Part shown: positions 2,902 to 30,748 of the stretch, piece after piece
How positions within the stretch are numbered: the first letter of the stretch is position 1
Layout: the number at the start of each line of letters is the position of its first letter
Source of the DNA: a virus
DNA: 33,560 nt
Direction: 5' to 3' (one strand)
Virus record (IMG/VR): IMGVR_UViG_3300048589_000784
Span: 1-33,560 of that record
The notes under the pieces: generated by a model
Seen by the model: the letters and a program-made list of their open reading frames with translations, nothing else
Databases searched by the model: none
What the model was told of the DNA's origin: nothing
Program-made: the position numbers and the translations under genes

Positions 2902-3984
2902 CTAGATGCCGCCCTTGCGGCGGTTGTCCTCCAGGCACAACATCTGACAGTTGTCGGCCAACGTCTTCCCACCCTCGTGCCAGGGCGTGATGTGGTCGGC
3001 CTCCATCTCGTCCAACTCGAAGTGCTCGTCACACATCGGGCAGATGCCCTCCTGGCGCTCGTAGGCTTCCCGCTTCTGATTGGGACTGAACGCACGGATG
3101 CTGAGGTGCTTCTCCTTGCCGTCGAGCACGTACGAGTAGATGCCCCGCTTCTTAGTCACGTCCTCATCGGCCATGAGTGCAGCGATTCGCGTTTCCAGGG
3201 CTGCGGAGTCTTGCGGGCTGTCCTTGAAGTGGTTGTAGAGGTCACCCCAGGCGACTCCTTCCATCTCGCTGCGATGAACAGGAAACGTCGCTTTGACCCA
3301 GTTGATGACGGCCTGGAAGTAAAGCCACAACTCGATCGCGTTGGGATCATGCTGATGAACCGCCATGTAGCCTTCGACATCGCCCTTGTTGATCCACTTG
3401 ATCGCGGTTTCGAGGTAATCCTGCCGGATGGGCTTTCCAGTCATATAACTGTGCGCGATCTGATATGCAGGGCAGCCAGTCTTGCTGAAGTAACGCTTAG
3501 AGTCGGTCACCCACGGACCGGAGTAGACAGCATTCCGAAGTTCCTGATCAGTTAGTTTCTCGCCAGCGATGTTGATGGTCTTGAACCATTCCAACTTCTC
3601 GCTATCCGTTCCGCTGCACCGGTAGACCATGAGCGGGTAGTCGAGGATCACTTGTCGCTCGTCTGTCTGGAGGTTGTGAAAGTAGCGCCCATTGAAAGCG
3701 AAGTCCCCCTCAACGTATTGGCAGATCGAAATGGTCCGCTGCTGACCGTCAATGACCTCGAAGTCCCCGTCGGCACGAACCGCCCAATACATGACGTTGA
3801 GCGGAAAGCCTTTCGTAATCGTTTCGATGACGGCTTCTCGTTGCTTCTCCCCGTAGATGAACTCACGCTGGTAGGGCGGTCGAATGTCGAGTCGGCCGCC
3901 ATAGCCATTGACACCACCTTCGTCGAGGTCCTCGTAGCCTTCCACTAGGTCCTTAACCGTGAGGTCTTGAAGTTCAATGTTCAT
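2902..3984 (-). CDS. DUF262-HNH endonuclease (GmrSD/SspE-like N-terminus)
   Basis: Encodes 360 residues. The N-terminal DUF262 domain shows PPYQR (36-40) and the hallmark DGQQR (79-83), the ParB-fold nucleotide-using motif of GmrS, SspE and BrxU. A helical middle region follows. The C-terminus is an HNH nuclease, with CPMC near 315, ADHITPWHEGG, and a final NxxRKGG. The ATG overlaps the stop of the upstream methyltransferase (ATGA), so the pair is translationally coupled and probably acts as one restriction system. DUF262 relatives restrict modified DNA or sense modification state; here the partner is an adenine methyltransferase. GC content is much lower than in the surrounding phage genes, pointing to horizontal acquisition. 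It appears intact. Confidence 0.88.
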   Translation of the reverse strand: MNIELQDLTVKDLVEGYEDLDEGGVNGYGGRLDIRPPYQREFIYGEKQREAVIETITKGFPLNVMYWAVRADGDFEVIDGQQRTISICQYVEGDFAFNGRYFHNLQTDERQVILDYPLMVYRCSGTDSEKLEWFKTINIAGEKLTDQELRNAVYSGPWVTDSKRYFSKTGCPAYQIAHSYMTGKPIRQDYLETAIKWINKGDVEGYMAVHQHDPNAIELWLYFQAVINWVKATFPVHRSEMEGVAWGDLYNHFKDSPQDSAALETRIAALMADEDVTKKRGIYSYVLDGKEKHLSIRAFSPNQKREAYERQEGICPMCDEHFELDEMEADHITPWHEGGKTLADNCQMLCLEDNRRKGGI

Positions 3985-5009
3985 AGCCGCTTGTTCCTAA
4001 TCACGATTCGGTCGTACATACGTCGGTATGTGCCATCCCCGTTGGGGAGGTAGAAGCGAGGCCCTCCCTGCTGGTAGGTGCCCTTTGCGGCAATGGTCGA
4101 CATGCGAACACCCAGATCACGACTGTTGCCAAGAATCTCGAACTGCTCTGGGTTGTAGCGATCCAAGAAGGTAATCGGAACTCCCATTGCGCCTGGGAAG
4201 TCCATAGGGATGTCGCTGAATCGCGACACCTCGATGCCGTCGAAGTTTGCGTAGGTCGGGTAATCGGTGGGGTTGTAGGACCGATACAGGATGAGGTCCT
4301 CGTGACGTTTGGAGATATCCAAGTTGGTGAACCAGCAGGCGTTACCTTGACTGCGCCACTTCTGGCCGCTCTCGTCCACCCAGAAGCGGGTCTCTCGGGG
4401 CTCGTAGTGATCTGGGACTTTGAACTTCATGTCACCGCTGTTGTAACCAAGCCATAACCTGTTGGCTTGAATCAGCGGAAAGACTTCCTTGTAACTGACG
4501 ACATTCTGATTGCCTAGGATGAGGAACTGCTTTTCGAAATCCATCAGCTGCGCCACGTACTCGCGGTAGAGGGAGAATGGCGGATTGGTTACAACGATGT
4601 CCGCTTGCTCTAATAGCGCTACGCTCTCCGCGCTTCGGAAGTCGCCGTCCCCTTGCAGTGGGGTAATGCCTATCTCCTCGGCATCGGGGACGTAGTTCCC
4701 GTTCTTGTCGCCGGTGTACTCAAGCCAGATCGCCTGCTCGGCTTCACCCTGGCTGAACAGGTCCATGTCCTGGCTCTTGTAGCAGGTGGCGACGAGGCGT
4801 TTGAGCCCCAACTTTTCGAAGTTGTACGAGAAGTAGTGGAAGAAGTTGCTTACGCGCGGATCGTCGCAGTTGCAGTAGACAACCTTGTCCTTGAAGTGGG
4901 CTCTATAGTGCTTCAACTCATCCTGGATGTCGGTGAGCTGTGTGTACCACTCGTCTTCTCGGGCACGCTTAGCCAATTGGAAACTCGTGTTCAGCGGTTT
5001 TGTCGCCAT
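3981..5009 (-). CDS. EcoRI-family adenine-specific DNA methyltransferase
   Basis: Encodes 342 residues. Motif IV is NPPF at 142-145 within a DIVVTNPPFSLYREYV context, the signature of N6-adenine methyltransferases. The N-terminal VYCNCDDPRVSNFF segment and the overall layout match the EcoRI methylase family rather than the Dam or Type I groups. The ATG at 5009 is preceded by GGGGAGG about three bases away, which is tight spacing but the only good candidate. It is the first gene of the minus-strand unit and overlaps the DUF262-HNH start. The expected role is to methylate adenine in a short target, protecting or marking DNA for the paired nuclease. The target sequence cannot be deduced from this reading. 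Confidence 0.88.
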   Translation of the reverse strand: MATKPLNTSFQLAKRAREDEWYTQLTDIQDELKHYRAHFKDKVVYCNCDDPRVSNFFHYFSYNFEKLGLKRLVATCYKSQDMDLFSQGEAEQAIWLEYTGDKNGNYVPDAEEIGITPLQGDGDFRSAESVALLEQADIVVTNPPFSLYREYVAQLMDFEKQFLILGNQNVVSYKEVFPLIQANRLWLGYNSGDMKFKVPDHYEPRETRFWVDESGQKWRSQGNACWFTNLDISKRHEDLILYRSYNPTDYPTYANFDGIEVSRFSDIPMDFPGAMGVPITFLDRYNPEQFEILGNSRDLGVRMSTIAAKGTYQQGGPRFYLPNGDGTYRRMYDRIVIRNKRL

Positions 5010-5273: not shown

Positions 5274-5342
5274 ATTTCCCTGCTATACGTCATCCTGATC
5301 GCCCTTGTCGTGGTGGTCCTTGGGCTCCTTACCCGCCTATGA
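5274..5342 (+). CDS. Possible 22-residue membrane peptide with ATT start
   Basis: The frame ending at 5342 encodes an almost purely hydrophobic segment (SLLYVILIALVVVVLGLL followed by T-R-L). It would span a membrane once with a basic cytoplasmic end. Its TGA overlaps the ATG of the ParB gene (ATGA), as at other junctions in this operon. No ATG, GTG or TTG occurs in frame back to the preceding stop at 5193. The only well-placed start is ATT at 5274, five bases after GGGAGG (5263-5268). CTG at 5280 is an alternative. Rare-start translation is inference; it could also be a decayed remnant. Confidence 0.35.
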   Translation: MSLLYVILIALVVVVLGLLTRL

Positions 5343-5884
5343 TCGCTCCCGACCTAGCGTCCCTGGCGGCGCCCATCGACGACCTGAAGCCGCTGCCCGG
5401 CAACCCGCGCCGGGGCAACGTCGACGCGGTCGCGCGCTCCCTGGCCCGGTTCGGCCAGCGCAAGCCCGTCGTGGCCCGTCCCGACGGCACGATCATCGCG
5501 GGCAACCACACCTGGGCGGCCGCTCGCAAACTGGGTTGGGCCGAGATCGCCGTGGTGCGTGTCGCCGACGACGACACCGAGGCGTTCGCCTTCGCTCTGG
5601 CCGACAACCGCACCGCCGAGTTGGGCGGCTACGACCAAGAGTCGCTGGCCGCCATGCTCGCCGAGGTCGCCGACACCGACGCGCTGCTCGCCACCGGGTA
5701 CACCGCCGAGGACGTCGCCGCGCTGCTGGCCACCACCGACGGCGACCCGCCCCCGGAGCCCGACCCGGAGCCCTACGTCACCCGCTGGGAGATCGTCGTG
5801 GAGTGCCGCGACGAGGAGCACCAGGAGGCCGTGTTCAACCGCCTGTCCGAGGAGGGACTGCCGTGCCGCGTGTTGACCTTGTGA
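5339..5884 (+). CDS. ParB/Spo0J-like domain protein
   Basis: Encodes 181 residues. The ParB N-terminal fold is clear: LKPLPGNPRRGN (box I), VARSLARFGQRKPVVA, the IIAGNHTWAAARKLGW box II equivalent, and ALADNRTAELGGYD. The rest is acidic with a short alpha/beta C-terminal segment. There is no HTH or dimerisation tail like that of chromosomal ParB. Phage versions are annotated as ParB-like nucleases and often sit beside DNA-modification enzymes. The start overlaps the upstream peptide's stop, and its end overlaps the ABC-GNAT gene by 22 bases. In this setting it may recognise or load onto DNA for the neighbouring enzymes, which is an inference. Confidence 0.88.
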   Translation: MIAPDLASLAAPIDDLKPLPGNPRRGNVDAVARSLARFGQRKPVVARPDGTIIAGNHTWAAARKLGWAEIAVVRVADDDTEAFAFALADNRTAELGGYDQESLAAMLAEVADTDALLATGYTAEDVAALLATTDGDPPPEPDPEPYVTRWEIVVECRDEEHQEAVFNRLSEEGLPCRVLTL

Positions 5885-6966
5885 TGTCCTCGCCGTCGGC
5901 GACGTCGTTCCGCGCGGCGAAGGTGCGCGGCATGTTCGACCTGCCCAGCGACGAGCACCTGGCCGTGCACATCGCCGCCGACCTGCCGCTGGACGAACGC
6001 GAGTGGCACCTCGGGCTGGTCACCGGCCCGTCCGGGTCGGGCAAGTCGACCATCGCCCGCGCGCTGTGGCCCGACGTCGTGGAGTGGCCCCACTGGGGTG
6101 ACGGCCCCATCGTCGACGAGTTCCCCGACCGGATGTCCCCGCAGGACATCGTCGAGGTGCTGACCGCGGTGGGGCTGTCCAGCCCGCCTGCGTGGCTGCG
6201 GCCCTACCGCAACCTGAGCACCGGCCAGCAGTTCCGCGCGTCGCTGGCGCGCATCCTGGCCGCCGAGGACGACCCGGCGGTGGTGGACGAGTTCACCTCC
6301 ACGGTCGACCGGACGGTGGCCAAGTCGGTGTCCGTCGCGGTCGCCAAGCAGGTGCGCCGCACCGGCCGTCGGCTGGTGTGCGTGACCTGTCACGAGGACG
6401 TCGCCGCGTGGTTGCAGCCGGACTGGGTGTACGCAACGGACACCCAGCGCTTCACTTGGGGGTGGAAACAACCCCGCCCGCCGATTCACGTACGAATCCG
6501 TGAGGCAGGTAAGGAAACCTGGCCTGTCTTTGCCGGGAATCACTATCTGAGCGCCGACCTGTCCACCTCGTGCCGGGCGTTCACCGGCTGGGTGCGCTTC
6601 GGCGACGACTCCGACGAGCGGCTGGCCGCCTTCTTCTCCATCCTGCCGGTGATGGGCCACGTCGGCTGGCGCCGTGGGCACCGCACCGTGGTGTTGCCCG
6701 ACTTCCAGGGCATGGGGATCGGCAACCGGGTCATCGAGACGGTTGCCGAGCAGTTGTACCGCCAGGAGGGTTTGCGGTTCCGCGCGGTCACCTCCGCGCC
6801 GGGGATCGTCGCCCACCGGCGGCGCCACCCCCATATGTGGCGGCTGGCCATGGCCCCGCAGCAGAAGCGCCCGACCGGGCGCAAGGGGGTCATCAAGAAG
6901 GTCTCGGCCGGGCGGCTGACCACCTCGTGGGTCTACATCCCCGAAGCGCTGAGGGCACCCGCGTGA
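5863..6966 (+). CDS. ABC-type ATPase fused to GNAT acetyltransferase-like domain (COG2401 type)
   Basis: Encodes 367 residues from the GTG at 5863, chosen because GGAGGG (5851-5856) precedes it; ATG 5884 is the alternative. The N-terminal ABC ATPase has Walker A GPSGSGKST (55-63), signature NLSTGQQ (about 117-123), Walker B VVDEF and a switch histidine in VTCHED. From about residue 210 a GNAT fold follows, with NHYLS and the acetyl-CoA loop VVLPDFQGMGIGNRV (about 276-290). This is the layout of COG2401. The GNAT part resembles the Mu Mom-like branch implicated in adenine hypermodification, though Mom function is not proven here. GC drops around 6455-6550, the junction between the two domains. 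The gene overlaps both neighbours. Confidence 0.85.
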   Translation: MPRVDLVMSSPSATSFRAAKVRGMFDLPSDEHLAVHIAADLPLDEREWHLGLVTGPSGSGKSTIARALWPDVVEWPHWGDGPIVDEFPDRMSPQDIVEVLTAVGLSSPPAWLRPYRNLSTGQQFRASLARILAAEDDPAVVDEFTSTVDRTVAKSVSVAVAKQVRRTGRRLVCVTCHEDVAAWLQPDWVYATDTQRFTWGWKQPRPPIHVRIREAGKETWPVFAGNHYLSADLSTSCRAFTGWVRFGDDSDERLAAFFSILPVMGHVGWRRGHRTVVLPDFQGMGIGNRVIETVAEQLYRQEGLRFRAVTSAPGIVAHRRRHPHMWRLAMAPQQKRPTGRKGVIKKVSAGRLTTSWVYIPEALRAPA

Positions 6967-7349
6967 GCAGCAAGATCGACCCGAGCTGCCTGGCCCGGGC
7001 GTACGACGGCCCCCAGGTGTTCGACTACGGCGCGCACCGCGCCGACCAGTTGGTGCTGGCCACCGGCGCCGGGCTCATGCTCGCCGCGATGGACGTGCTC
7101 AACGCCCGCTGGTGTGTCGACATCGGCGGCCAGCGCGGGCTCACCAGACACCGCGACTGGCTGGCCGCCAGCGCGCAGGCCGTCGAGCGGGTCTGGCTCA
7201 TCGGCTGGTTCACGGTCACCGACCCGGGGTCGGTGTTCGACGTCGTGCGCGAGTGCGTGCCCGCGTTCAAGGTGACCTCCTACACCCATCCCGAGTTTGA
7301 CCACGGCACCCGCTACGCCACCTTCCCCGGAGCCCCCACATGCACGTGA
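6963..7349 (+). CDS. Unknown protein in the ParB/ABC-GNAT operon
   Basis: Encodes 128 residues. The GTG at 6963 overlaps the previous stop (GTGA), and its own end overlaps the dehydrogenase ATG by 10 bases, so it belongs to a tightly coupled operon. I do not recognise the family. Visible features are a hydrophobic LVLATGAGLMLAAMDVL helix near residues 30-46, WCVDIGG, and a beta-like VWLIGWFTV strand. Histidines and acidic residues cluster near the end (YTHPEFDHGTRY). The mix of a central strand with conserved-looking His/Asp is compatible with a small enzyme or binding domain. Its constant position between two enzymes suggests a step in the same pathway. Confidence 0.7.
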   Translation: MSSKIDPSCLARAYDGPQVFDYGAHRADQLVLATGAGLMLAAMDVLNARWCVDIGGQRGLTRHRDWLAASAQAVERVWLIGWFTVTDPGSVFDVVRECVPAFKVTSYTHPEFDHGTRYATFPGAPTCT

Positions 7350-8239
7350 TCGCCACCCTGGAGCACGCCGGGTTCCTCACCGAGCGGGTCATCCCCCACG
7401 TGGCGGTCACCTCCGACGGCTACCCCGTCGAGGGCACCCGTGACGCGTCCGGGCCGGTCGCCGTCTGGTGGTCGTTCAGCATGACCGCCGCAGGCCGCCG
7501 GCGGGTGTTCGACCGCTACCGCGACCGCATCGTGTGGGTGCACTCCGACGCCGCCGGGGTCGACCACCTGGCACCCCTGCCGCCGCGCGCGGCGGTCACC
7601 TCGGCGCACGCCGCGCAGACGCGCGGGGTCGCCGAGTGGGTGCTGGCCGCCATGCTGTGGGACACCAAGGACATGGCCGCCTACCAGCGGCGCTCGGACA
7701 GCGGACTGTGGCAGCCCGGCGGCACCGCGACCGGCCTGTCCGGTCGCAGGGCCGCCTTCTTCGGCACCGGCGCCATCACCCAGCGGGTGCTGCCCGCGCT
7801 GCTCGCGCTCGACGTTGACGCCGTCGGCACCAACGAGACCGGCACCCAGGTGCACGGGATGACCACGCTGCCCTTCCGTGAATGGGTGGGCTGGCTGCGC
7901 ACCTGCCGCTGGCTGGTGATCGCCGCGCCGCTCACCGACGACACCGAGCACGCCATCGACCTGGGGGTGCTGTCCAACCTCGACGGGGCGTGCCTCATCA
8001 ACGTGGGCCGGGGGCGGATCGTCGCACCGGGCGCCATCGAGGAGGCGCTGCGCCAAGGCTGGCTGCACTCGGCCGTGCTCGACGTGCACGACCCGGAGCC
8101 GCTGCCCGCCACGTCGCCGCTGTGGACCGACGACCGGGTGCTGGTACTCCCACACGACACCTGGCGAACCGATGGACTGCGGCACTCCCGCCAGCAGGCT
8201 TTCCTGGCCGAGTACCGCAGACGCATCGCCGACAGTTAG
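7340..8239 (+). CDS. D-2-hydroxyacid dehydrogenase family protein
   Basis: Encodes 299 residues, near the family's usual 310-330. The first third is a divergent substrate domain (VHSDAAGVDHLAPLP). The NAD(P)-binding Rossmann loop is FGTGAIT at 141-147, in which the third glycine of GxGxxG is Thr. The residue usually Asp at the end of the second strand is Asn, hinting at NADP use. The catalytic triad appears intact: Arg224 in NVGRG, Glu253 in DVHDPEP, His272 in LPHDTW. Such enzymes interconvert 2-oxo and D-2-hydroxy acids. A phage copy is unusual. It is the last gene of the ParB/ABC-GNAT operon, so it may supply or recycle a small acid used there, which is an inference. Confidence 0.9.
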   Translation: MHVIATLEHAGFLTERVIPHVAVTSDGYPVEGTRDASGPVAVWWSFSMTAAGRRRVFDRYRDRIVWVHSDAAGVDHLAPLPPRAAVTSAHAAQTRGVAEWVLAAMLWDTKDMAAYQRRSDSGLWQPGGTATGLSGRRAAFFGTGAITQRVLPALLALDVDAVGTNETGTQVHGMTTLPFREWVGWLRTCRWLVIAAPLTDDTEHAIDLGVLSNLDGACLINVGRGRIVAPGAIEEALRQGWLHSAVLDVHDPEPLPATSPLWTDDRVLVLPHDTWRTDGLRHSRQQAFLAEYRRRIADS

Positions 8240-13862: not shown

Positions 13863-14804
13863 GTGGCATACGACAACATCATCGCGCGCGGCGCCGACGG
13901 CGACCCGCTCGTGCCTGAGCCCATGGTTCAGGAGGTCATCAAGGAGGCCGTGCAGGGCTCGGCGATCCTCCAGCAGGCCCGCCGGGTCACCATGTCGAGT
14001 AAGACCCAGCGCCAGCCGGTGCTGTCGGTGCTGCCGCAGGCGTACTGGGTGACCGGGGACACCGGCCTGAAGCAGACCACCAAGGCCGAGTGGGACAACA
14101 TCGACCTCGTCGCCGAGGAGATCGCGGTCATCGTCCCGGTGCCCGAGGCGTACATCGCCGACAGCGGCATCCCCATCTGGAACGAGGTGCGTCCGCTCAT
14201 CGGGCAGGCCATCGGCGCCAAGTTGGATCAGGCGTGCCTGTTCGGCACCGACGCCCCCAGCACGTTCGGCACCTCGGTGTTCGAGTCGGCCGAGGCCGCC
14301 GGGAACGTGGTCACCGCCGGAACCGGCGACGACCTCGCCGTCGACGTCGCCAGCCTCGGAGAGTTGCTGGCCGTCGAGGGCTACTCCCTGACCGGGTTCA
14401 TGTCCCGGCCCGGGTTCCAGTGGCGGCTCGTGGGGCTGCGCACCAGCGACGGCACCCCGATCTACTCGCCCAACCTTCAGGGCGCGCCGGGTCAGGGACT
14501 GTTCGGCCGCCCGCTCAACGAGGTCGGCAACGGCGCCTGGTCGGCCACTGACGCCGACCTGATCGGCGGCGACTTCTCCAAGGCCATCGTCGGTGTGCGC
14601 CAGGACATCACCTTCCGGGTGTTCACCGAGGGTGTCATCTCCGACGACAGCGGCAACGTGGTGCTCAACCTCATGCAGCAGGACTCGGTCGCGCTGCGCG
14701 TGGTGGCCCGCTTCGGGTTCGCAGTCGCCAACCCGGTCAACACTCTCGGTGGCGGGGCGGCGGGCACCAGCCCGTTCGGCATCCTGGCACCGGCATCGGT
14801 GTAA
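13863..14804 (+). CDS. Major capsid protein (HK97 fold)
   Basis: Encodes 313 residues from GTG 13863, preceded by AAAGGAG. The sequence follows the HK97-type pattern of actinophage capsids: an N-terminal arm (PEPMVQEVIKEAV), the E-loop region around LSVLPQAYWVTGDTGLKQTTK, and EIAVIVPVPEAYIADS. Next come IGQAIGAKLDQACLFG and a beta-rich P-domain ending VNTLGGGAAGTSPFG. It forms the icosahedral shell. It follows the scaffold and is followed by a perfect 13-bp hairpin, in keeping with the highest expression of the operon. No fused protease domain is present. Confidence 0.93.
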   Translation: MAYDNIIARGADGDPLVPEPMVQEVIKEAVQGSAILQQARRVTMSSKTQRQPVLSVLPQAYWVTGDTGLKQTTKAEWDNIDLVAEEIAVIVPVPEAYIADSGIPIWNEVRPLIGQAIGAKLDQACLFGTDAPSTFGTSVFESAEAAGNVVTAGTGDDLAVDVASLGELLAVEGYSLTGFMSRPGFQWRLVGLRTSDGTPIYSPNLQGAPGQGLFGRPLNEVGNGAWSATDADLIGGDFSKAIVGVRQDITFRVFTEGVISDDSGNVVLNLMQQDSVALRVVARFGFAVANPVNTLGGGAAGTSPFGILAPASV

Positions 14805-15085: not shown

Positions 15086-15442
15086 ATGGCTCTGGCATCA
15101 GCAGCAGCAGCCAACGCCGCCCTGGACGGGATCGCCGCCGTGGCCGGGTTCGCCTCGCTGCACACCGCGAGCCCGGGCACCGACGGCTCCAACGAGAACG
15201 CCAACAGTGGCGGCTACGCCCGGCAGGCCGTGGCGTGGAACGCCGCCTCCGGCGGCAGCATGACCAACTCGGGGGCGCTGTCGTTCACCACCGGCGGCAC
15301 CGTCGAGGTGACCCACGTCGGCACGTGGAGTTCCGGCACGTACGGCGCGGGCACCTACTACATCGGCCTGGCGCTCACCAGCGGGCTGACCGCCGCCTCG
15401 ATCACGTTCGCCGCAGGCAGCCTGACCCTGACCGCGTCCTGA
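15086..15442 (+). CDS. Gp80-like virion protein
   Basis: Encodes 118 residues. The FASLHTASPGTDGSNE segment, followed by GGYARQAVAWNAASGG and a long beta-strand tail, matches the small Gp80-like family of actinobacteriophages. These are short beta-sandwich virion proteins often encoded with fibres or near the head genes. The C-terminal half is Gly/Thr/Ser rich. It ends just upstream of the large repeat protein, which shares the same compositional bias. A decoration or fibre-base role is inferred. Confidence 0.75.
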   Translation: MALASAAAANAALDGIAAVAGFASLHTASPGTDGSNENANSGGYARQAVAWNAASGGSMTNSGALSFTTGGTVEVTHVGTWSSGTYGAGTYYIGLALTSGLTAASITFAAGSLTLTAS

Positions 15443-15468: not shown

Positions 15469-17757
15469 GTGGCGTCCCTCACGTTCCTGCCCACGGGCAT
15501 CACCGCCGGTGCGGACACGAACAGCCCCTACGCGGGTCGCACCTACACCCTGCCGTCGGGCACCACCTCCGGTGACCTGCTCGTCGGCTTCTACGGCGGC
15601 AAGCCGTACGACACGGTGCCCTCCATCCCGAGCGGGTACACCGCGCAGTCCGGCGGGGCCAACGGCACCACCGCCAACGGCAACGGCTCCGGGTCGGTGT
15701 ACGCGGTGGCGTTCACCAAGACCCACTCGGGTTCGGAGTCCGACCCCTCCTCGACGATGGCGGCGGGCTACTCCCCGGCCATCACGGCCATGCTGGCGAT
15801 CCAGCCCGACTCGGCGGTCACCTGGGCGGTGACCTCCACCAAGGGGTCGGACTCGGCCGCGACGGGCACCAACTTCAGCGCGACCGGCGAGTCCACACTC
15901 GACTACACCACCGGCGACGTCGTGGTGGTGCAGATCGTGCACAACGACGACAGCAGCGGCGACAGCGGCTTCCGGCTGTCCATCCCCGGCTGTGTGGTGT
16001 CCACCCCGATCCAGCGGCTGACCGGCACGCTGACCACGAGCACCGGCAACGACGGCCGGATGTACGTGCTCACCGCCGGGATCATCAGCGGCACCGCCAC
16101 CGGCGCCCCGACCGTGACCGCCACGACCGGCTCGGGGGACTCCGACGGGCAGGCGGTGTTCCTGCGCGCCAGCGGCGCCTCCTACGCCCCGGCCGCCAAG
16201 GCCGAGACGTTCACCGACGACTTCGCCGACGGCATCGGCTCGCACTGGAACAACAACGGCGGGTCACCCACCGTCGTCGACGGGGCCATGTCCCAGACGG
16301 TCAGCACCTCGTGGACGGCCTCGTGGACACCCAACGACGGGTGGAGCCCCCCGATGGCCGCCCCGCTCGACCTCACCGACTCGCACGTGTTCGCGCAGGT
16401 CGGCCTCCCGGCGGTCGGGTCGGCCGGGGGCCAGTGGCGGTTCAACCTGCTGAACAACATCCCGCTGGACTCCGTGGCGATCTTCATGGACTCCTCGGAC
16501 AAGATTCAGGGCTACGTCAAGAAGTCCAACTCCACGGTGTTCACCGGCACCGCCGGGCCGACGTACAACCCGACGACGCACGCCTGGCTGCGCATCCGTG
16601 AGGCGAGCGGCACGGTCTACTTCGACCACTCGGCCGACGGGGTCACGTGGACGAACTTCGACTCCACCACGCACACCGTCGACCTGACCAACGTGTTCAT
16701 CGAGTTCGGCGCCCAGATGCCCTCGGGCACCGACACCATGACCGTCGACAACGTCAACGTGGCCGGTTCCAGCGGGACGCCGGGCACCGCCAGCGGCTCG
16801 CTGAGCCTGGGCGCCAGCGCGACAGCGGCGGCGGCGGGATCGGCCGGTGGGTCGCTGAGCCTGGGCGGCAGCGCGGCAGCGGCAGCAGCGGGCACCGCCA
16901 CCGCCAGCGGCTCACTGACCCTCAGTGGCAGCGCGACCGGGGCGGCCGTCGGCACCGCCAGCGGCTCACTGGCCCTGGCAGGCGACGCGGTCGCTTCGAC
17001 CGACGCGGCGGGCTCGCTCACTCTGGGCGGCAGCGCGACCGGGACGGTGAGCATCACCGCCGGTGGTGCACTCACGCTGGGCGGCACCGCCCTCGGTGCT
17101 GCTGCTGAGACGGCTACCGGCGCCCTCACGCTGGACGGAGCCGCCGTCGCGGCCGGGGCGGGCACCGCGACCGGCGACGTCACGCTCAGCGGCACCGCGA
17201 CGGGCCAGGCCGCCACCACCGGCGCTGGCAGTCTGGCCCTGAGCGGCATCGCCGACGGCGGCGCGTCCGGGGCGGCCAGCGGCACACTGACCCTCGACGG
17301 GCTGGTCGCCGCCGGTCTGCTCGGGCAGGCCACCGGCGAGGTCACCCTCGGTGGGCAGGCCACCGGGCTGGCCGCCGGGCAGGCCGCCGGCGGGCTGTCG
17401 CTGACCGGGTACGCCCTGGCGGGCGCCGACGTGGCCGCCTCCGGTCTGCTGTCGCTGTCCGGGCTGGCGGCCGCCGACGGTTCGGCCACCGCCGCCGGGC
17501 ATCTCGCACTGGCCGGGACGGCCGTCCCCGACGGCTACGTCGTCGGCTGGCTGGAACTGGTCGGCACCGCCACCGGGGCCGCGCAGACCCTGAGCCCGGG
17601 CGACATGACCGGCGCCACGTCGGTCGCCTCGATGACCGGCGCCAGTACGGCCTCGGGCATCACCGGCGCCAGCAGTGGCGTCGCCGGGATCACCGGCGCC
17701 CAGACCGCCGGTGACATTCAAGGGCAGTCCGCGGCCGCGACCATGAGCAGGAGTTGA
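15469..17757 (+). CDS. Large Gly/Ala/Ser/Thr-rich repeat virion protein (762 aa)
   Basis: Encodes 762 residues from GTG 15469. Residues 1-240 form a beta-rich domain (AGRTYTLPSGTTSGDLLVGF, then VWAV-like strands). Residues about 245-440 resemble a concanavalin/LamG-type sandwich (FTDDFADGIGSHW, YFDHSADGVTWTNFDS). From residue 443 about fifteen 18-residue repeats of form G-x-L-x-L-x-G-x-A follow. Four 9-10-residue repeats on the MTGA/ITGA theme close the protein. Such a fold could be a rigid beta-solenoid stalk or a head fibre. Its place between capsid and connector genes is unusual for a tail fibre. The Ser/Thr/Gly richness makes it a possible substrate of the three glycosyltransferases downstream. 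Confidence 0.8.
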   Translation: MASLTFLPTGITAGADTNSPYAGRTYTLPSGTTSGDLLVGFYGGKPYDTVPSIPSGYTAQSGGANGTTANGNGSGSVYAVAFTKTHSGSESDPSSTMAAGYSPAITAMLAIQPDSAVTWAVTSTKGSDSAATGTNFSATGESTLDYTTGDVVVVQIVHNDDSSGDSGFRLSIPGCVVSTPIQRLTGTLTTSTGNDGRMYVLTAGIISGTATGAPTVTATTGSGDSDGQAVFLRASGASYAPAAKAETFTDDFADGIGSHWNNNGGSPTVVDGAMSQTVSTSWTASWTPNDGWSPPMAAPLDLTDSHVFAQVGLPAVGSAGGQWRFNLLNNIPLDSVAIFMDSSDKIQGYVKKSNSTVFTGTAGPTYNPTTHAWLRIREASGTVYFDHSADGVTWTNFDSTTHTVDLTNVFIEFGAQMPSGTDTMTVDNVNVAGSSGTPGTASGSLSLGASATAAAAGSAGGSLSLGGSAAAAAAGTATASGSLTLSGSATGAAVGTASGSLALAGDAVASTDAAGSLTLGGSATGTVSITAGGALTLGGTALGAAAETATGALTLDGAAVAAGAGTATGDVTLSGTATGQAATTGAGSLALSGIADGGASGAASGTLTLDGLVAAGLLGQATGEVTLGGQATGLAAGQAAGGLSLTGYALAGADVAASGLLSLSGLAAADGSATAAGHLALAGTAVPDGYVVGWLELVGTATGAAQTLSPGDMTGATSVASMTGASTASGITGASSGVAGITGAQTAGDIQGQSAAATMSRS
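16795..17590 (+). repeat. About 15 tandem 54-bp repeats within the 762-aa protein gene
   Basis: Degenerate coding repeats of 54 bases encode 18-residue units with the pattern G-x-L-x-L-x-G-x-A, then a Gly/Ala/Thr spacer. Copies vary between 16 and 20 residues. Recurrent DNA words such as CTGGGCGGCAGCGCG and ACCGGC show shared ancestry. The unit changes gradually along the array, suggesting duplication followed by drift. Confidence 0.8.
17605..17733 (+). repeat. Short MTGA/ITGA coding repeats
   Basis: Four 9-10-residue repeats end in (M/I)-T-G-A, encoded around repeated ACCGGCGCC words, at the C-terminus of the 762-residue protein. They differ in period from the 54-bp array just upstream, so the protein carries two distinct repeat types. 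Confidence 0.6.
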
Positions 17758-17759
17758 GA

Positions 17760-18620
17760 ATGGCAACCTACGACCTCGGCGACGTCGTCACGCTGAGCGC
17801 GTCCGTGCATGACGTCGACGGTGACCTGGCCGACGCCACCGACGTGACCCTCGACGTGACCCTGCCCGACGGCACGCTCACCCAGCCGACGGTGAGCCAC
17901 CCCTCGGTGGGGCAGTACACCGCCACGTACACCCCGCCCAGCCCTGGGCGCTACATGGTGCGCTGGGTGGCCACCGGGGACAACGCCTCGGCGTTCACCG
18001 ACTCCTTCAGCGTGCGAGACCCCGACGCCGTGCGGACGTACCTGGCCACCGTCGACGACGTCGTGGCGCTGGGCGCCAGCCCCGCGCAGGTGACCGGCGA
18101 GATGCTGGCCCAGGCGTCGGCCCGGTTCCGCTCGGAGGCCCAGCACCCCATCGACCGGCGCACCTACACCCAGGTGCTGCGCGCCGTCGGCGGGTGGCTG
18201 CGGCTGCCCCGCACCCCGGTGGCCGCCGTCGACGAGGTGCGCGCGGTCAACGCCGACGGCACCCTCGGCGACCTGCTCACCGGCTGGGTGTTCGACGGCC
18301 TCGACATGCTCACCGTGTCGCGGCTGACCCCCGACGTGTGGCTCAACGGCCCCGCAGCGGTCTGGTCGGACACCGTGCAGGTCACCTACACCGCCGGGTA
18401 CGACCCGATCCCCGAGGACGTGCGCTGGGCCGTGGCCGCCATGGTCAAGCGCGCCGCCGAGGCGGGCTCGTCGGGGGTGACCGCTGAGGCCATCGGCGAC
18501 TTCAGCCGCTCCTTCGGCGGGTACACCGCATCGGGGGCGTACTCGATGACCGCCGACGAGCGGGCCACCGCCGCCCGCTACCGCACCACCGCCCGGTCAC
18601 TGTCGGTCGGTCGGGGCTAG
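17760..18620 (+). CDS. Head-tail connector with N-terminal Ig-like domain (gp6-like)
   Basis: Encodes 286 residues from ATG 17760, six bases after AGGAG; TTG 17754 is a weaker start. Residues 1-85 form an Ig-like beta domain (DLGDVVTLSASVHDVDGD, SHPSVGQYTATY, GRYMVRW). Residues about 95-286 match the helical adaptor that docks beneath the portal, with DDVVALGASPAQVTGEML, FRSEAQHPIDRRTYTQ and AVAAMVKRAAEA. The Ig-like addition is not part of the standard adaptor and may project outward. It is the first gene of the connector set, but glycosyltransferase genes separate it from the rest. Confidence 0.85.
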   Translation: MATYDLGDVVTLSASVHDVDGDLADATDVTLDVTLPDGTLTQPTVSHPSVGQYTATYTPPSPGRYMVRWVATGDNASAFTDSFSVRDPDAVRTYLATVDDVVALGASPAQVTGEMLAQASARFRSEAQHPIDRRTYTQVLRAVGGWLRLPRTPVAAVDEVRAVNADGTLGDLLTGWVFDGLDMLTVSRLTPDVWLNGPAAVWSDTVQVTYTAGYDPIPEDVRWAVAAMVKRAAEAGSSGVTAEAIGDFSRSFGGYTASGAYSMTADERATAARYRTTARSLSVGRG

Positions 18621-18676: not shown

Positions 18677-19339
18677 ATGAACACACACACCGACCTCGTC
18701 GTCCTCGTGCCGATGCTTGGCCGCGCGCAGACGATGGCGCCGCTGCGCGACTCGCTGCACGACACGGCGCCGGGCGCCGACCTGCTGTGGATCGTCACCG
18801 ACGGCGACACCGAGGTGCTGGCAGGCGTCGGCAGCGACGACCTCGTGCTGGTGGTGCCCCAGCGCAAGCGCGGCGACTACGCACACAAGATCAACCGAGC
18901 TAGTTCCGCAACCGATCACCGGCTGCTGTTCCTGGGCGGGTGCGACATCCGGTTCCACCCGGGCTGGATCGACGCCTGCCGGGCGCGGCTGGCCGACGGT
19001 GCCCTGGTGGTGGGCACCAACGACCTCGGCAACCCGGCCACCGCCACCGGGCAGTTGAGCACCCACACCCTGGTGGATCGGCGCTACCTCGACCTGGGCA
19101 CCGCCGACGAGCCCGGGGTGCTGCTGCACGAGGGCTACTGGCACGAGTACGTGGACACCGAGTTCGTGGCCACCGCCAAGGCGCGCGGGGTGTACGCCCA
19201 CGCCCCGGACGCCGTCGTCGAGCACCTGCACCCGCGCTGGGGCAAGGCGCCCACCGACCCGCTCTACGCCCAGGCCCGCAAGCGCATGACCCTGGGCCGG
19301 GCGATCTACCGCAGGAGGCGACGGCTGTGGACGACGTGA
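18677..19339 (+). CDS. Glycosyltransferase-like protein 1
   Basis: Encodes 220 residues. The Rossmann-like start (LVVLVPMLGRAQ) leads to an acidic metal site context (LLFLGGCDIRFHPGW). A later YWHEYVDTEFVATAKARG segment is typical of GT-A transferases, followed by a basic tail (RRRRRLW). It overlaps the second transferase by 13 bases. The acceptor and sugar are not deducible. It sits in the connector operon, so virion proteins are plausible targets, which is an inference from position. A 56-base gap precedes it without a strong ribosome site. Confidence 0.8.
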   Translation: MNTHTDLVVLVPMLGRAQTMAPLRDSLHDTAPGADLLWIVTDGDTEVLAGVGSDDLVLVVPQRKRGDYAHKINRASSATDHRLLFLGGCDIRFHPGWIDACRARLADGALVVGTNDLGNPATATGQLSTHTLVDRRYLDLGTADEPGVLLHEGYWHEYVDTEFVATAKARGVYAHAPDAVVEHLHPRWGKAPTDPLYAQARKRMTLGRAIYRRRRRLWTT

Positions 19340-19896
19340 CCGTGGTGGTGGGCACCTACGGTGACCGCCGGGCGTGGGAGTCGCTGGCCTACCGCCGGGC
19401 GATCCCCAGCGCCCGGATGCAGGGCGTCCCGGTGATCCACATGCACGGGGACACACTGGCCCAGGCCCGCAACGACGGCATCCGGGCAGCCAGCACCGAA
19501 TGGGTGCTGGTGCTCGACGCCGACGACGAGTTGGCCCCCGGCGCGGTCGACGCCCTGCTGGGCGGCAGCGCCGACCTGCGCGCGCCCCGGCTGATCGAGG
19601 TGCACCCCTCCGGGCGGCAGTCCGAGCGGGTGCTGGCCGAGCGCGACATCGAACGGCTCAACCCCCTGCCGGTGACCACCCTGGCCCGTCGGGCGGCCGT
19701 GCTCGACGTCGGCGGGTTCCAGCCCTGGCCCGCCTGGGAGGACTGGGCGCTGTGGCTGACCCTGGTACGCCGGGGCGCCACCTACGAACACATCCGCGAG
19801 GCGGTGCTGTACGCCCACATACGCCCCGGGTCGCTCAACCGCTCGGTGCGCAACGGCCGGGTGCTGTACCGCCAGATTCGGGAGGCTTCATGGTGA
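19327..19896 (+). CDS. Family 2-type glycosyltransferase 2
   Basis: Encodes 189 residues from GTG 19327, set by AGGAGG eight bases upstream (19313-19318). It is compact but has the GT2 signatures: VTVVVGTYGD at the start, LAQARNDGIRAAS, the metal-binding LDADDELAPG, and a WEDWALWLTLVRRG acceptor-side motif with the acidic ED pair. The C-terminus overlaps the third transferase (ATGGTGA). A short two-domain GT-A enzyme is expected to use a nucleotide-sugar. It looks intact. Confidence 0.88.
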   Translation: MDDVTVVVGTYGDRRAWESLAYRRAIPSARMQGVPVIHMHGDTLAQARNDGIRAASTEWVLVLDADDELAPGAVDALLGGSADLRAPRLIEVHPSGRQSERVLAERDIERLNPLPVTTLARRAAVLDVGGFQPWPAWEDWALWLTLVRRGATYEHIREAVLYAHIRPGSLNRSVRNGRVLYRQIREASW

Positions 19897-20567
19897 ACGT
19901 CGAGGTGGTCATCCCCATCGGCAAGAACGACAGCGCCGGGCGCATCCGGGTGCGGGACTGGATCGTCGAGCGCTACCGGCGCGAGCACCCCGACTACCGG
20001 GTCACCCTCGCGGGATGCCCGACGCGGGACTGGTCGAAGGGCCGCGCCGCCAACCCGCTGCTGCTGGGGTCGACGGCCGACGTGGTGATCCTGGCCGACG
20101 CCGACTCCTACGTGCACCCCCGGATGCTGGCTGCAGCCGCCCTCGCGGTGGCCGACAACCCCGCCGGGTGGGGCTTCCCCCACACCCTGGTGCGGCGCAT
20201 CACCGGCCGGGACACCGCCCGCATCCTCGACGGCGAACAGGTGCCCCGGCCCGGTTTCGAGCGCACCGCCAGCGTGCTGCCCGGCGGCGGCATCGTCGCG
20301 GCCACCCCGCAGGCGTGGCGTCACGTCGGCGGGGTCGACCCCCGGTTCGTCGGCTGGGGCGGTGAGGACTTCGCGCTGGGCTGCGCCCTGCACATGCTGC
20401 GCGGCGCCCCGTCGATGCCCCAGGAGGCCAGCATCCTGTGGCACCTGTGGCACCCCAGCGGCAAGCGGCGCACCAGCGCGGACACCCAAGACCTGCTGCG
20501 CCGCTACCGGATCGCCCGGCGCGGCGACCGTGAACAGATGGCCGCCCTGGTCGGGGAGTGGCGATGA
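19890..20567 (+). CDS. Glycosyltransferase 3 with WGGED motif
   Basis: Encodes 225 residues from ATG 19890, five bases after GGGAGG. VVIPIGKND begins the GT-A fold. ILADADSYVHP carries the DxD metal site. FVGWGGEDFALG matches the WGGED motif of galactosyl/GalNAc-transferases of the GT7/GT27 type. GGIVAATPQAWRHVGG precedes it as in that group. A soluble cytoplasmic enzyme is expected, with no membrane segment. Its stop overlaps the next connector gene (ATGA), so it is fully embedded in the structural operon. Virion glycosylation by actinophages is known; the substrate here is not shown. Confidence 0.88.
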   Translation: MVNVEVVIPIGKNDSAGRIRVRDWIVERYRREHPDYRVTLAGCPTRDWSKGRAANPLLLGSTADVVILADADSYVHPRMLAAAALAVADNPAGWGFPHTLVRRITGRDTARILDGEQVPRPGFERTASVLPGGGIVAATPQAWRHVGGVDPRFVGWGGEDFALGCALHMLRGAPSMPQEASILWHLWHPSGKRRTSADTQDLLRRYRIARRGDREQMAALVGEWR

Positions 20568-20896
20568 GCGGACTGCCGGAACACCTGCTGCGCCCGTTGT
20601 CGGCGCAGCGCTCCACCGAGACGGTCAACCCCGACGGCACCGTCGACACCACCTGGGACAGCGTCGCCTTCACCGGCCGGATCACCCGGGGCCGGGCCAG
20701 CGAGGACACCGACCGGGGCCGCCAGGCCGGGGTCACCGAGATCACCCTGATGACCAACTACGACGGGCTGGACACCACCGACCGGATCGTGGACGCCGAG
20801 CAGACCCCGTGGCTGGTGGACGGCCCGCCGCTGCCGATCTGGGACGCCGACGGCGTGCACCACTACGAGGTTCCCCTACGGAGGGCCGAAGGATGA
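20564..20896 (+). CDS. Head-closure / stopper connector protein
   Basis: Encodes 110 residues. GGGGAG precedes the ATG, which overlaps the stop of glycosyltransferase 3. The sequence is a beta-rich small domain (ETVNPDGTVDTTWDSVAFTGRIT, EITLMTNYDGLDTTDRIVD, PLPIWDADGVHHYEV) consistent with head-closure proteins that plug the portal before tail joining. Its stop overlaps the next ATG. Assignment rests on size, fold pattern and order rather than a diagnostic motif. Confidence 0.65.
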   Translation: MSGLPEHLLRPLSAQRSTETVNPDGTVDTTWDSVAFTGRITRGRASEDTDRGRQAGVTEITLMTNYDGLDTTDRIVDAEQTPWLVDGPPLPIWDADGVHHYEVPLRRAEG

Positions 20897-21580: not shown

Positions 21581-22135
21581 ATGGCAGCAGAGGACATCTT
21601 TGCGGGCTCCGGTCAGGCGCTGTCCGGCCCGTACGGCACGACACTGCCCACCGACATCGACGACATGACCACCCTCGACCCGGCCCTGCTCGACCTGGGG
21701 CTCATCTCCGAGGACGGCCTGGAGCACGCCTTCAGCGTGGACAAGACCGTGATCCGCGACTGGTCGGGGCAGCCGGTGCGCGCCATCGGCACCTCGACCG
21801 AGATCACCTTCAAGTTGACCTACCTGGAGACCAACGCCGAGGTGATCGGCCACTACTACGGGGCCGACCCCGTCGTGGCCGGAACCGGCTCCCGGGTCGA
21901 CTTCGGGCAGCCGTCCGACCGCACCTACGCCATGGTGATCCCGGTGGAAGATCCCGGCACCGGCCGGGTGAAGGTCTACGTGCTGCCCCGCGTCGAGGTC
22001 GTCGAGCGTGACGACCAGACGGTCAAGCCTGACGAGACCGGCTACGGGATCACCTATCAGGCGCTGCTGGAGCCCACCCTCGGCTCGTGCGGCTACATCC
22101 TGTTCGACGAGGACTTGACCGGCACGCTGACCTGA
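21581..22135 (+). CDS. Major tail tube protein
   Basis: Encodes 184 residues, preceded by AGGAGG. It has the beta-sandwich pattern of siphovirus tail tube subunits: a long N-terminal loop (AGSGQALSGPYGTT), EITFKLTYLETNAEVIGHYYG, RTYAMVIPVED, then KVYVLPRVEVVERDD and ITYQALLEPT. It stacks as hexamers around the tape measure. It is followed by a 15-bp perfect hairpin, the second after an abundant structural protein. The gene appears intact. Confidence 0.9.
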   Translation: MAAEDIFAGSGQALSGPYGTTLPTDIDDMTTLDPALLDLGLISEDGLEHAFSVDKTVIRDWSGQPVRAIGTSTEITFKLTYLETNAEVIGHYYGADPVVAGTGSRVDFGQPSDRTYAMVIPVEDPGTGRVKVYVLPRVEVVERDDQTVKPDETGYGITYQALLEPTLGSCGYILFDEDLTGTLT

Positions 22136-28945: not shown

Positions 28946-30748
28946 ATGCGTTACCTGTACGGCGCCACGGCCGCCGACTGGACGTCGACCCGCACCGGAG
29001 AGTTCGTCCCCAACATCACGCTGTCGTGCTGGGACGCCCAGACCGGCGGCAACCAGATCACCGACCTCATCAACTACCAGGGCAGCCCCAGCACGCTGGT
29101 GCTGTCCGACGACGACGGCCTGGTGCGCTTCTACGGCCCGGACAACGAGCAGCGCGTCCTGTGGCTGGACACCGGCGAGACCGCCCGGGTCGCGGTACGC
29201 CCGGTCGACCTGCGGGTGCTCAAGGACAACGCCGTGGTCACCGCCGACATCACCAACGCGGCCGTCACCGAGGCGAAGATCGCCGACGGTGCGGTGGCCA
29301 CCGCGAAACTGGCCGACAGCGCGGTGAGCACCGCCAAGGTCGCCAACGCGGCGGTGACCAACGCGAAACTGGGTGACGCGGCGGTCAACTCGGTGAAGTT
29401 GGCCGACGGCGCGGTCGGCACCCCGAAGATCGCCGACGGGGCGGTGTCGCTGGCCAAACTCGGCCCCGACGTGGTGCTCGGCGGCGGGGGCGGCGGCGCG
29501 GGCATCGCGGTCGACGTCAAGTTGTACGGCGCCGTCGGCGACGGCAGCACCAACGACACCGACGCCATCGAGGCCGCGATCAGCGCCGCCGGGGCCGGTG
29601 GCGTGGTGTACTTCCCGCGCGGCACCTACAAGGTGACCAACACACTGTGGCCGCTCAACGGCCAGCGCTGGACGGGCGAGCACATCCCCAAGTATTGGCA
29701 CGCCGACACCCCCAACAGCAGTTGCACCATCCAGGCGGCCACCCCGTTCACCGGCCGGGCGCTCGTCGAGCGTGGCAGCGGCGTCTACGGGGTGATGCTG
29801 GAGCGGCTGTGCCTGCACGGGTGGGACGAGACCAGCGGCACGATCATCGACGGGGTGCACCTCGGCGACGGCACCGGCGAACGCGCGTGGAGCATCGACT
29901 GGTGCACCATTCGGCGGTTCTCCGGGTGCGGGCTGACCGGGCGGATGCACGTGGCCGACATGCGGGACTGCCACATCGTGCGCAACGGCTACGGGGTGCG
30001 CTCGGTGAGCAGCAACTCGATCACCGACATGCGCATCAACGCCTGCCAGTTCTACTACAACCTCAACGGCGGCATCTGCCTGGACTCGACCTCGCGCAAC
30101 GGGATGCTCAGCATCAACAGCACCCGAGTGGAACGCACCGGCTCCACCCCGGGCGTCCCAGCGGTGAACCGCAACACCAACGCCCCGGGCGTCCGCATCA
30201 CCAACTCGGTGAACATCGACCTCGTGCAGGTGTCCACCGATGCCAACTCCGGGCCGGGCCTGCTGGTGCAGGGCAACCGGGGTGGGGGCACCTACGTGAC
30301 GTCGCTGGCCGTGCTCGGCTGCAACTTCGCCCGCGACGGCGGCGGCGACCAGTCGGCGGGTGTGCAGGTGCCCGGCGTGAAGGTGGTGCAGGCCGACCAC
30401 ATGATGTTCGTGGGCAACCACATCACGTGGGGGCAGGCCGACGACGGTGGCGGCGGGGTCATCACCCCCTACTACATGCTGTGGCTGGAGGACGTCTACC
30501 ACTCGGTGTTCACCGCCAACTGGACGGTGGCCAACACCGCCGCCAACTCGCTGCACCTCGTGGGCTCCAACTGGCGCACTAAGGTCGACTCGGTCTACCT
30601 CGGGTTCGACTGCCTGCGCCCGGCCGCCGACAGTGAGCGCACCACCGCGAACCTGCCGGTCGGCGCCTCCTACTTCTCCACCACGAGCAACCGCCCGAAG
30701 TTCTGGACGGGCTCGGCGTGGGTCAACGCCGACGGGTCGGCCGGGTGA
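28946..30748 (+). CDS. Tailspike-like protein with right-handed beta-helix
   Basis: Encodes 600 residues. The first about 90 residues are an adaptor domain (YLYGATAADWTSTRTGEFV). Eight or so 10-11-residue AVxTAK-type repeats follow (residues about 94-175), then a Gly-rich hinge. From DVKLYGAVGDGSTNDTDAIEAAI a pectate-lyase-superfamily beta-helix runs to about residue 560. A short cap (SNRPKFWTGSAWVN) ends it. The beta-helix often depolymerises or deacetylates surface glycan; no catalytic residues can be assigned from sequence alone. It overlaps the next gene at GTGA. A weak GAAAGG precedes the ATG. Confidence 0.88.
   Translation: MRYLYGATAADWTSTRTGEFVPNITLSCWDAQTGGNQITDLINYQGSPSTLVLSDDDGLVRFYGPDNEQRVLWLDTGETARVAVRPVDLRVLKDNAVVTADITNAAVTEAKIADGAVATAKLADSAVSTAKVANAAVTNAKLGDAAVNSVKLADGAVGTPKIADGAVSLAKLGPDVVLGGGGGGAGIAVDVKLYGAVGDGSTNDTDAIEAAISAAGAGGVVYFPRGTYKVTNTLWPLNGQRWTGEHIPKYWHADTPNSSCTIQAATPFTGRALVERGSGVYGVMLERLCLHGWDETSGTIIDGVHLGDGTGERAWSIDWCTIRRFSGCGLTGRMHVADMRDCHIVRNGYGVRSVSSNSITDMRINACQFYYNLNGGICLDSTSRNGMLSINSTRVERTGSTPGVPAVNRNTNAPGVRITNSVNIDLVQVSTDANSGPGLLVQGNRGGGTYVTSLAVLGCNFARDGGGDQSAGVQVPGVKVVQADHMMFVGNHITWGQADDGGGGVITPYYMLWLEDVYHSVFTANWTVANTAANSLHLVGSNWRTKVDSVYLGFDCLRPAADSERTTANLPVGASYFSTTSNRPKFWTGSAWVNADGSAG
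29225..29469 (+). repeat. Coding repeats in the tailspike adaptor (AVxTAK type)
   Basis: About eight 30-33-base repeats encode units such as DGAVATAKLA, DSAVSTAKVA and NAAVTNAKLG. They form a linker or triple-helical neck between the adaptor and beta-helix domains. Copies differ by conservative substitutions. Confidence 0.8.

Follow-up and report, generated by a model that had tools for sequence, protein, structure and literature searches.

A shortened glycosyltransferase cassette among the head-tail genes of an uncultured phage, most likely for the glycosylation of its own virion proteins

The stretch of DNA analysed here (the window) is a linear virus record of 33,560 bases with a GC content of about 71%, in which the genes follow the order typical of siphophages (Table 1). 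Three glycosyltransferase (GT) genes, GT1, GT2 and GT3, overlap one another on the same strand and lie between the genes for a head-tail adaptor and for the head closure protein Hc1, so that they do split the connector genes, as an earlier reading of the sequence alone had proposed. Small genes separate the major capsid protein (MCP) gene from that of a 762-aa repeat protein upstream of the adaptor. On the other side, a Ne1-like gene and then a tail terminator gene lie between Hc1 and the major tail protein (MTP), which is followed by a chaperone gene, the tape measure gene (from 22956) and the remaining tail genes. The adaptor itself begins with an Ig-like domain of about 90 aa (weak Big_1/Filamin matches over residues ~10-80), which would be displayed at the neck. 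An AGGAGG is found 8 nt 5' of the GT2 start and a GGGAGG 5' of the GT3 start, and the GT3 stop and the Hc1 start share an ATGA. Going by this overlap, GT3 and Hc1 are probably translationally coupled, and such coupling to a structural gene makes it likely that the GT genes would be expressed late.

Table 1. Positions of the GT genes and of the head and tail genes around them in the window.
Feature	Position	Strand	Match
TerL	starts 9466		
Portal	starts 11135		
MuF/protease	starts 12593		
Scaffold	starts 13331		
Major capsid protein (MCP), C-terminus ...LAPASV, candidate acceptor	13863..14804	+	PF05065 E=2.5e-27, phrog_10
Gp80-like fibre/decoration protein, 118 aa, ends ...LTLTAS	15086..15442	+	PF23140 E=3e-12
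762-aa S/T/G/A-rich repeat protein, LamG-like domain at residues ~239-435	15469..17757	+	
Head-tail adaptor, upstream boundary of the GT genes	17754..18620	+	phrog_442 E=7e-26
GT1, GT-A glycosyltransferase, 220 aa, anchor gene of the cassette	18677..19339	+	
GT2, family-2 glycosyltransferase, 189 aa, DADD + EDW motifs	19327 (GTG)..19896	+	
GT3, GT7-C-like glycosyltransferase, 225 aa, DAD + WGGED motifs	19890 (ATG)..20567	+	
Head closure Hc1, downstream neighbour of GT3	20564..20896	+	phrog_501 E=5e-6
Major tail protein (MTP), C-terminus ...LTGTLT, candidate acceptor	21581..22135	+	phrog_117 E=2.6e-29

GT2 and GT3 are recognized above the Pfam cut-offs, GT2 by PF00535 (35.8 bits, cut-off 23.3) and GT3 by PF02709, Glyco_transf_7C (26.7 bits, cut-off 23), with a further match of GT3 to phrog_1721. 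GT1 is weak by sequence, its PF00535 hit (E=0.043) being below the Pfam cut-off and its match to the glycosyltransferase family phrog_14945 having E=3e-9. The AlphaFold2 model of GT1 (pLDDT 95.3) has a GT-A fold, and its Foldseek matches include WrtF, SpsA, GalNAc-T2 and TarP (E 3e-9 to 1e-6). A single Rossmann-like GT-A domain is thus predicted in each protein, by the model for GT1 and by Pfam for GT2 and GT3, which upholds the earlier claim of three distinct GT-A enzymes, one of them (GT3) with a WGGED motif. The modelled fold of GT1 does not give away its acceptor, since the matching enzymes act on proteins, wall polymers and polysaccharides alike. The conserved motifs of GT1 are VVGTNDLGN, HEGYxHxxVDDE and EHLHPxWGK, and its acidic residues are an invariant D90 (GCD replacing ADD) plus D160/E162. 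If positions shared by 90% or more of 38 cassette phages count as conserved, those unchanged in the window number 48 of 50 for GT1, 24 of 25 for GT2 and 26 of 27 for GT3. The acidic active-site motifs are all retained, and the three enzymes are each predicted to have a metal-binding DxD-type motif and a catalytic acidic motif.

To place these genes among their relatives, loci were gathered by searching IMG/VR with GT1, GT2, GT3 and a further cassette member, GTx5, with bacterial genomes added. The GT1 search matched more than 115 IMG/VR contigs at identities of up to 61%, and the 133 GT1-bearing loci fall into 100 groups at 90% identity, which we treat as non-redundant. The complete series GT1-GT2-GTx2-GTx5-GT3 is present in 31 of these 100, the canonical gene order is kept in 47/49 loci having at least three cassette members, and each of the 24 listed loci showing both flanks (a few of them duplicate fetches) has GT1 between the MCP and the tail genes. 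The recurrence of this arrangement in dozens of unrelated contigs is far beyond chance. GTx5 is a family-2 GT (PF13704); GTx2 gave no match in the Pfam search, and we regard it as a putative GT from the score of its HMM with gp110 of mycobacteriophage Che8 (20 bits) and from a LEDDF motif. Methyltransferases and NAD-dependent epimerases are added in some loci.

The cassette members are not distributed independently of one another. Loci fetched by GT2 alone carry GT1 in all cases where GT2 is full length, and GT1 is also found alone in some loci; this nested occurrence fits a role of GT1 as the first enzyme, although many of the contigs are truncated. Distances between the GTs are correlated with each other (Spearman 0.23-0.60), as are those of TerL and portal (0.63), whereas GT distances are mostly uncorrelated with those of TerL, portal or MTP (-0.23 to 0.31; all raw coefficients). 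Since they hardly follow TerL and portal, the GTs would pass from phage to phage as a module, to some extent without the head genes, and yet return to one slot. A DNA-level search of phage records with the GT region returned zero matches, and the adaptor as a query returned only two distant partial matches. The earlier description of the GTs as inserted into the connector genes is right as to where they lie, but it undersells a reduced form of an ordered cassette in a conserved slot.

The window holds GT1-GT2-GT3 in the canonical order within the MCP-tail slot, and neither GTx2 nor GTx5 has a match in it, so that it falls short of the five-enzyme set. This three-gene form is common to the window and two other loci (L031 and L040). 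A tree of GT2 places L031 and the window together with the five-gene locus L007 (99/94), and L052 joins them next (99/98); in that of GT1, L031 pairs with the window (100/95) and the two are joined by L007, L052 and L179 (93/85). The simpler reading is that GTx2 and GTx5 were probably lost from the window. L031 carries the same three genes intact at 47-66% protein identity, and the window genes, as judged from their sequence, are genuine and intact and make up a shortened version of a conserved phage cassette for glycosylation.

What such cassettes do is best known from mycobacteriophages. Virion proteins are reported to be glycosylated in Che8, Corndog and Myrna; in Che8 and Corndog, capsid and tail tube are glycosylated by enzymes of this kind, and Che8 gp110 and Corndog gp38 are named as essential for capsid glycosylation (PMC12363180). 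In mycobacteriophages, glycans were reported C-terminally on both the capsid and the tail tube (PMC12619734). Corndog also has a methyltransferase and GTs within its head genes, which the authors proposed to modify the capsid (PMC4351075).

Pairwise BLASTP is too weak to be used alone at these distances (window GT2 against Che8 gp108, E=2e-5; window GT3 against Firecracker gp35, E=0.18), and family HMMs were used instead. Each of the three Che8 proteins falls in one cassette family, gp108 with GT2 (27.3 bits), gp109 with GT3 (65.8 bits) and gp110 with GTx2 (20.0 bits), with off-target HMM scores of at most 9; Firecracker gp35 scores 84.4 bits with the GT3 HMM and gp36 14.5 bits with the GTx2 HMM. 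By these family HMMs, and only weakly by pairwise BLASTP, GT2 and GT3 of the window are homologous to tandem GTs of the Che8/Corndog type. The suggestion of virion glycosylation of the mycobacteriophage kind is thereby strengthened, GT2 and GT3 being distant relatives of Che8 gp108 and gp109, and GT3 also of the cluster O protein gp35.

The likeness to Che8 (cluster F1) extends to three GT genes in tandem, overlapping by 4 nt, two of which match the GT2 and GT3 families. However, the Che8 genes lie at the right end of the genome rather than in the connector slot, gp108 has an extra C-terminal methyltransferase-like part, gp108-110 include no match to GT1, and the essential, GTx2-like gp110 has no counterpart in the window. 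The Che8 MCP ends in ..NKTGS and its MTP in ..SDGS, unlike the window proteins, which do not end in Ser. Corndog and Firecracker (cluster O) have an O-methyltransferase, two GTs and an N-acetylglucosaminyltransferase in the head operon, and thus also a GT cluster among structural genes, with Firecracker gp35 in the GT3 family and with ends of -VGS (MCP) and -GDS (MTP) in Firecracker. Their cluster differs from that of the window in lying between portal and protease rather than between adaptor and Hc1, in its O-methyltransferase, in having no match to GT1 or GT2 and, in Firecracker, in the GTx2-like gp36. Because an enzyme of the GTx2/gp110 type (the gp110/gp38 type of Che8 and Corndog) has no match in the window, we do not class the window as a Che8-type member; it would work like one and shares two enzyme families with it. 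Its MCP and MTP also depart from the Ser ends that we find associated with that type.

Among other relatives, cluster J mycobacteriophages (Baka, L265; MiaZeal, L278) carry a GT cassette in nearly the same slot, between MCP and head-tail adaptor; this methyltransferase-GT-galactosyltransferase-GT group includes a GT3-type enzyme but has other companion genes, in genomes of ~110 kb, and the MTP ends in Ser while the MCP does not. A prophage of the cultured Parafrankia soli NRRL B-16219 (L113/L161) has the full collinear cassette in its connector region along with a large LamG-repeat protein, but differs from the window in having GTx2 and GTx5, in the position of the cassette between Hc1 and the next connector gene, and in an MCP ending in -TAGS. 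Among 50,697 phage records, only Caudovirales GX15bay (MK557849) has GT2-GTx2-GTx5 in order, though in a GT run 5' of the terminase among other sugar genes, outside the MCP-tail slot, and with no GT1 of the cassette subfamily above 23 bits.

The C-termini of the capsid and tail-tube proteins provide a further link to virion glycosylation. In phages with both GT1 and GT2, the last residue is Ser in 15/17 non-redundant MCPs and 11/12 non-redundant MTPs, and both proteins are Ser-ended in seven of the eight phages showing both, as against 14/50 MCPs, 4/32 MTPs and 3/32 for both in GT-less relatives. The difference gives Fisher p-values of 2.5e-5 for the MCP and 1.9e-6 for the MTP, which are optimistic and indicative only, as the loci share ancestry and many of them are fragments. 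Among GT-less MCPs, Ser ends number 4/32 in one family and 10/18 in another, and comparison with the latter family alone gives p=0.06. The signal is confined to the last position, with Ser frequencies of 88% (MCP) and 92% (MTP) at -1 and 0-21% at -2 to -8; pooled together, all other gene families at the same loci end in Ser in 23/347 cases. These counts are restricted to GT1+GT2 phages and were redone after a pooled set of all GT1-bearing phages proved to include a non-Ser group with a long GT1, and three controls (L237, L316 and L346, with Ser-ended MCPs in 3/3) were removed because a PF00535 gene is present in each. Among cultured phages carrying GTs, both proteins are Ser-ended in Che8, Firecracker, Brujita, Avani, Cornie, prophiGD102-1 and Gattaca. 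Neither is in TM4, Bxb1 and phiC31, nor is the MCP of Giles, and no phrog_1721-type GT was found in these four control phages.

The association has its exceptions, and the window is one of them, with an MCP ending in -ASV (Ser one residue from the end) and an MTP ending in -TLT (Thr at the end); a small candidate virion protein with an -AS end does occur in the window, namely the Gp80-like protein (-TAS). Cluster J capsids also break the rule, and so does a group of phages with a second cassette type in the same slot (L101, 6239-8734; L082; and L117, in the Amycolatopsis pretoriensis DSM 44654 genome), which combines a long, two-part GT1 with a methyltransferase and a 2OG-Fe(II) oxygenase (PF13640) resembling prolyl hydroxylases; the capsid proteins of this group end in N, Q, T or G rather than Ser, which suggests a different acceptor chemistry. 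In Gordonia phage GMA2 (L268, 3296-6367), the consecutive orf16, orf17 and orf18 of the structural region all end in -TGS and adjoin a methyltransferase-GT pair. In Mycobacterium phage Bobi (L272) only a short remnant of a gp109-type GT is found, yet both its MCP and its MTP have kept a -DGS end, so that it would offer a natural instance in which to look at GT loss.

The most likely function of the cassette is late, phage-encoded O-glycosylation of virion proteins. The three GTs would be a shortened virion-glycosylation cassette, read late from within the head-tail operon. In it GT1, the candidate initiating enzyme, would begin an O-linked glycan on virion proteins of the phage itself, with GT2 and GT3 lengthening the chain to some three sugars; we assign these roles because of the conserved gene order and the nested occurrence. 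The multi-sugar glycan foreseen from three GTs in a row is thus likely, and fuller relatives would add two more enzymes, some also a methyltransferase. Across the cassette family the likeliest acceptor would be the C-terminal Ser of MCP and MTP, as in mycobacteriophages, and in the window phage the near-terminal Ser/Thr of the same two proteins or, alternatively, another virion protein such as the Gp80-like one.

That the target is a virion protein at all seems very probable to us; that the C-termini of capsid and/or tail tube are the main target in the window phage has about even chances. Against virion glycosylation at these C-termini stand the altered ends in the window and in its nearest relative, L031 (MCP -GSA), the lack in the window of GTx2, the counterpart of Che8 gp110 and Corndog gp38 (named as essential in mycobacteriophages; PMC12363180), the frequent Ser ends of one GT-less MCP family, and the failure of the Ser rule in the oxygenase-bearing phages and cluster J capsids. 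A wider proposal, for a widespread group of mostly uncultured phages, we would give the same weight for as against: a five-enzyme cassette in the head-tail operon would attach an oligosaccharide to MCP and MTP at their C-terminal Ser, with -[G/A]S as a short acceptor signal common to unrelated proteins, gene order as assembly order, and the window as a shortened form whose acceptor end has shifted.

The sequence-only reading had taken the Ser/Thr/Gly-rich 762-aa protein as the obvious acceptor. Modification of this LamG-repeat protein, a head fibre or neck whisker, into a mucin-like appendage is unlikely in our estimate. Its gene lies two genes upstream of the GTs, its composition is suitable, and a repeat protein of 991 aa that shares the LamG-like domain is encoded among the connector genes of the P. 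soli prophage, which has the full cassette; since the window MCP and MTP are not Ser-ended, the 762-aa protein may be an acceptor in the window phage. As a conserved acceptor, however, we reject it as a general rule, for it is not a recurrent cassette partner: five-enzyme loci with a complete MCP-to-MTP interval encode no large Ser/Thr-rich protein there, except L058 (the GT1-only locus L009 being another exception), and the LamG-like domain was found only in the window, the P. soli prophage and Streptomyces phage Hiyaa gp13, Hiyaa having no GT match to phrog_1721. In the prophage (L113, 14193-17168) and in Hiyaa (L006), otherwise different actinophages, the LamG-like domain is followed by long low-complexity repeats of completely different sequence, again in the connector region.

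Less probable still is a decay of the cassette, in which the three genes would be what is left of five and would have little activity or none. The absence of GTx2 and GTx5, the position of the window and L031 among five-gene loci in both GT trees, and the loss of the terminal Ser of MCP and MTP in the same phage would all agree with decay. The three ORFs are intact, however, with nearly all conserved residues and all acidic motif residues kept, and the set is equally intact in L031 despite the divergence of its proteins.

Broadly similar phage GTs are known from serotype conversion, and the wall-teichoic-acid enzymes TarP, TarS and RmlT are among those that GT1 resembles in fold. A reading in which the GTs alter a glycan of the host surface, either wall teichoic acid or arabinogalactan, so as to exclude superinfection or change the receptor, is in our view quite improbable: the genes lie within a late structural operon, overlapping Hc1, and not in a lysogeny region, a flippase or membrane GT partner was not seen, and the association with C-terminal Ser in MCP and MTP would be left unexplained. 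Glycosylation of hydroxymethylated phage DNA is the least credible reading, for although a TET-associated GT-A of phage phiRSL1 is among the weaker structural matches, the window proteins searched (from a linear, probably partial contig) yielded no TET, JBP or hydroxymethylase, the slot is a late structural one, and virion proteins are the substrates of the nearest functional relatives, the GTs of Che8 and Corndog (PMC12363180).

Glycosylation of virion proteins by the phage's own enzymes is documented in a few mycobacteriophages, namely Che8, Corndog and Myrna (PMC12363180), and the cassette points to an extension of this strategy to many uncultured phages. It provides an ordered enzyme set, a cultured host with the full cassette (P. 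soli NRRL B-16219) and the prediction that capsid and tail-tube proteins carry a sugar at their final serine; a GT cassette together with Ser-ended MCP and MTP could serve to predict glycosylated virions from a genome.

Elsewhere in the window, a tailspike-like protein (28946-30748, plus strand) with a pectate-lyase/rhamnogalacturonase-type region (PF12708) is likely a host-glycan depolymerase. A D-2-hydroxyacid dehydrogenase (7340-8239, plus strand; PF02826, E=8.5e-32) is an unusual metabolic gene 5' of the terminase, and the 553-aa protein encoded at 5305-6966 (plus strand; phrog_11143, E=2e-89) combines an ABC-type ATPase region with a GNAT acetyltransferase region. A lower-GC island (55-60% versus 71%) at 2902-5009 on the minus strand carries overlapping genes for an EcoRI-type adenine methylase (PF13651, E=1e-136) and a GmrSD_N-HNH protein, which together look like a phage-carried restriction-modification or defence pair.
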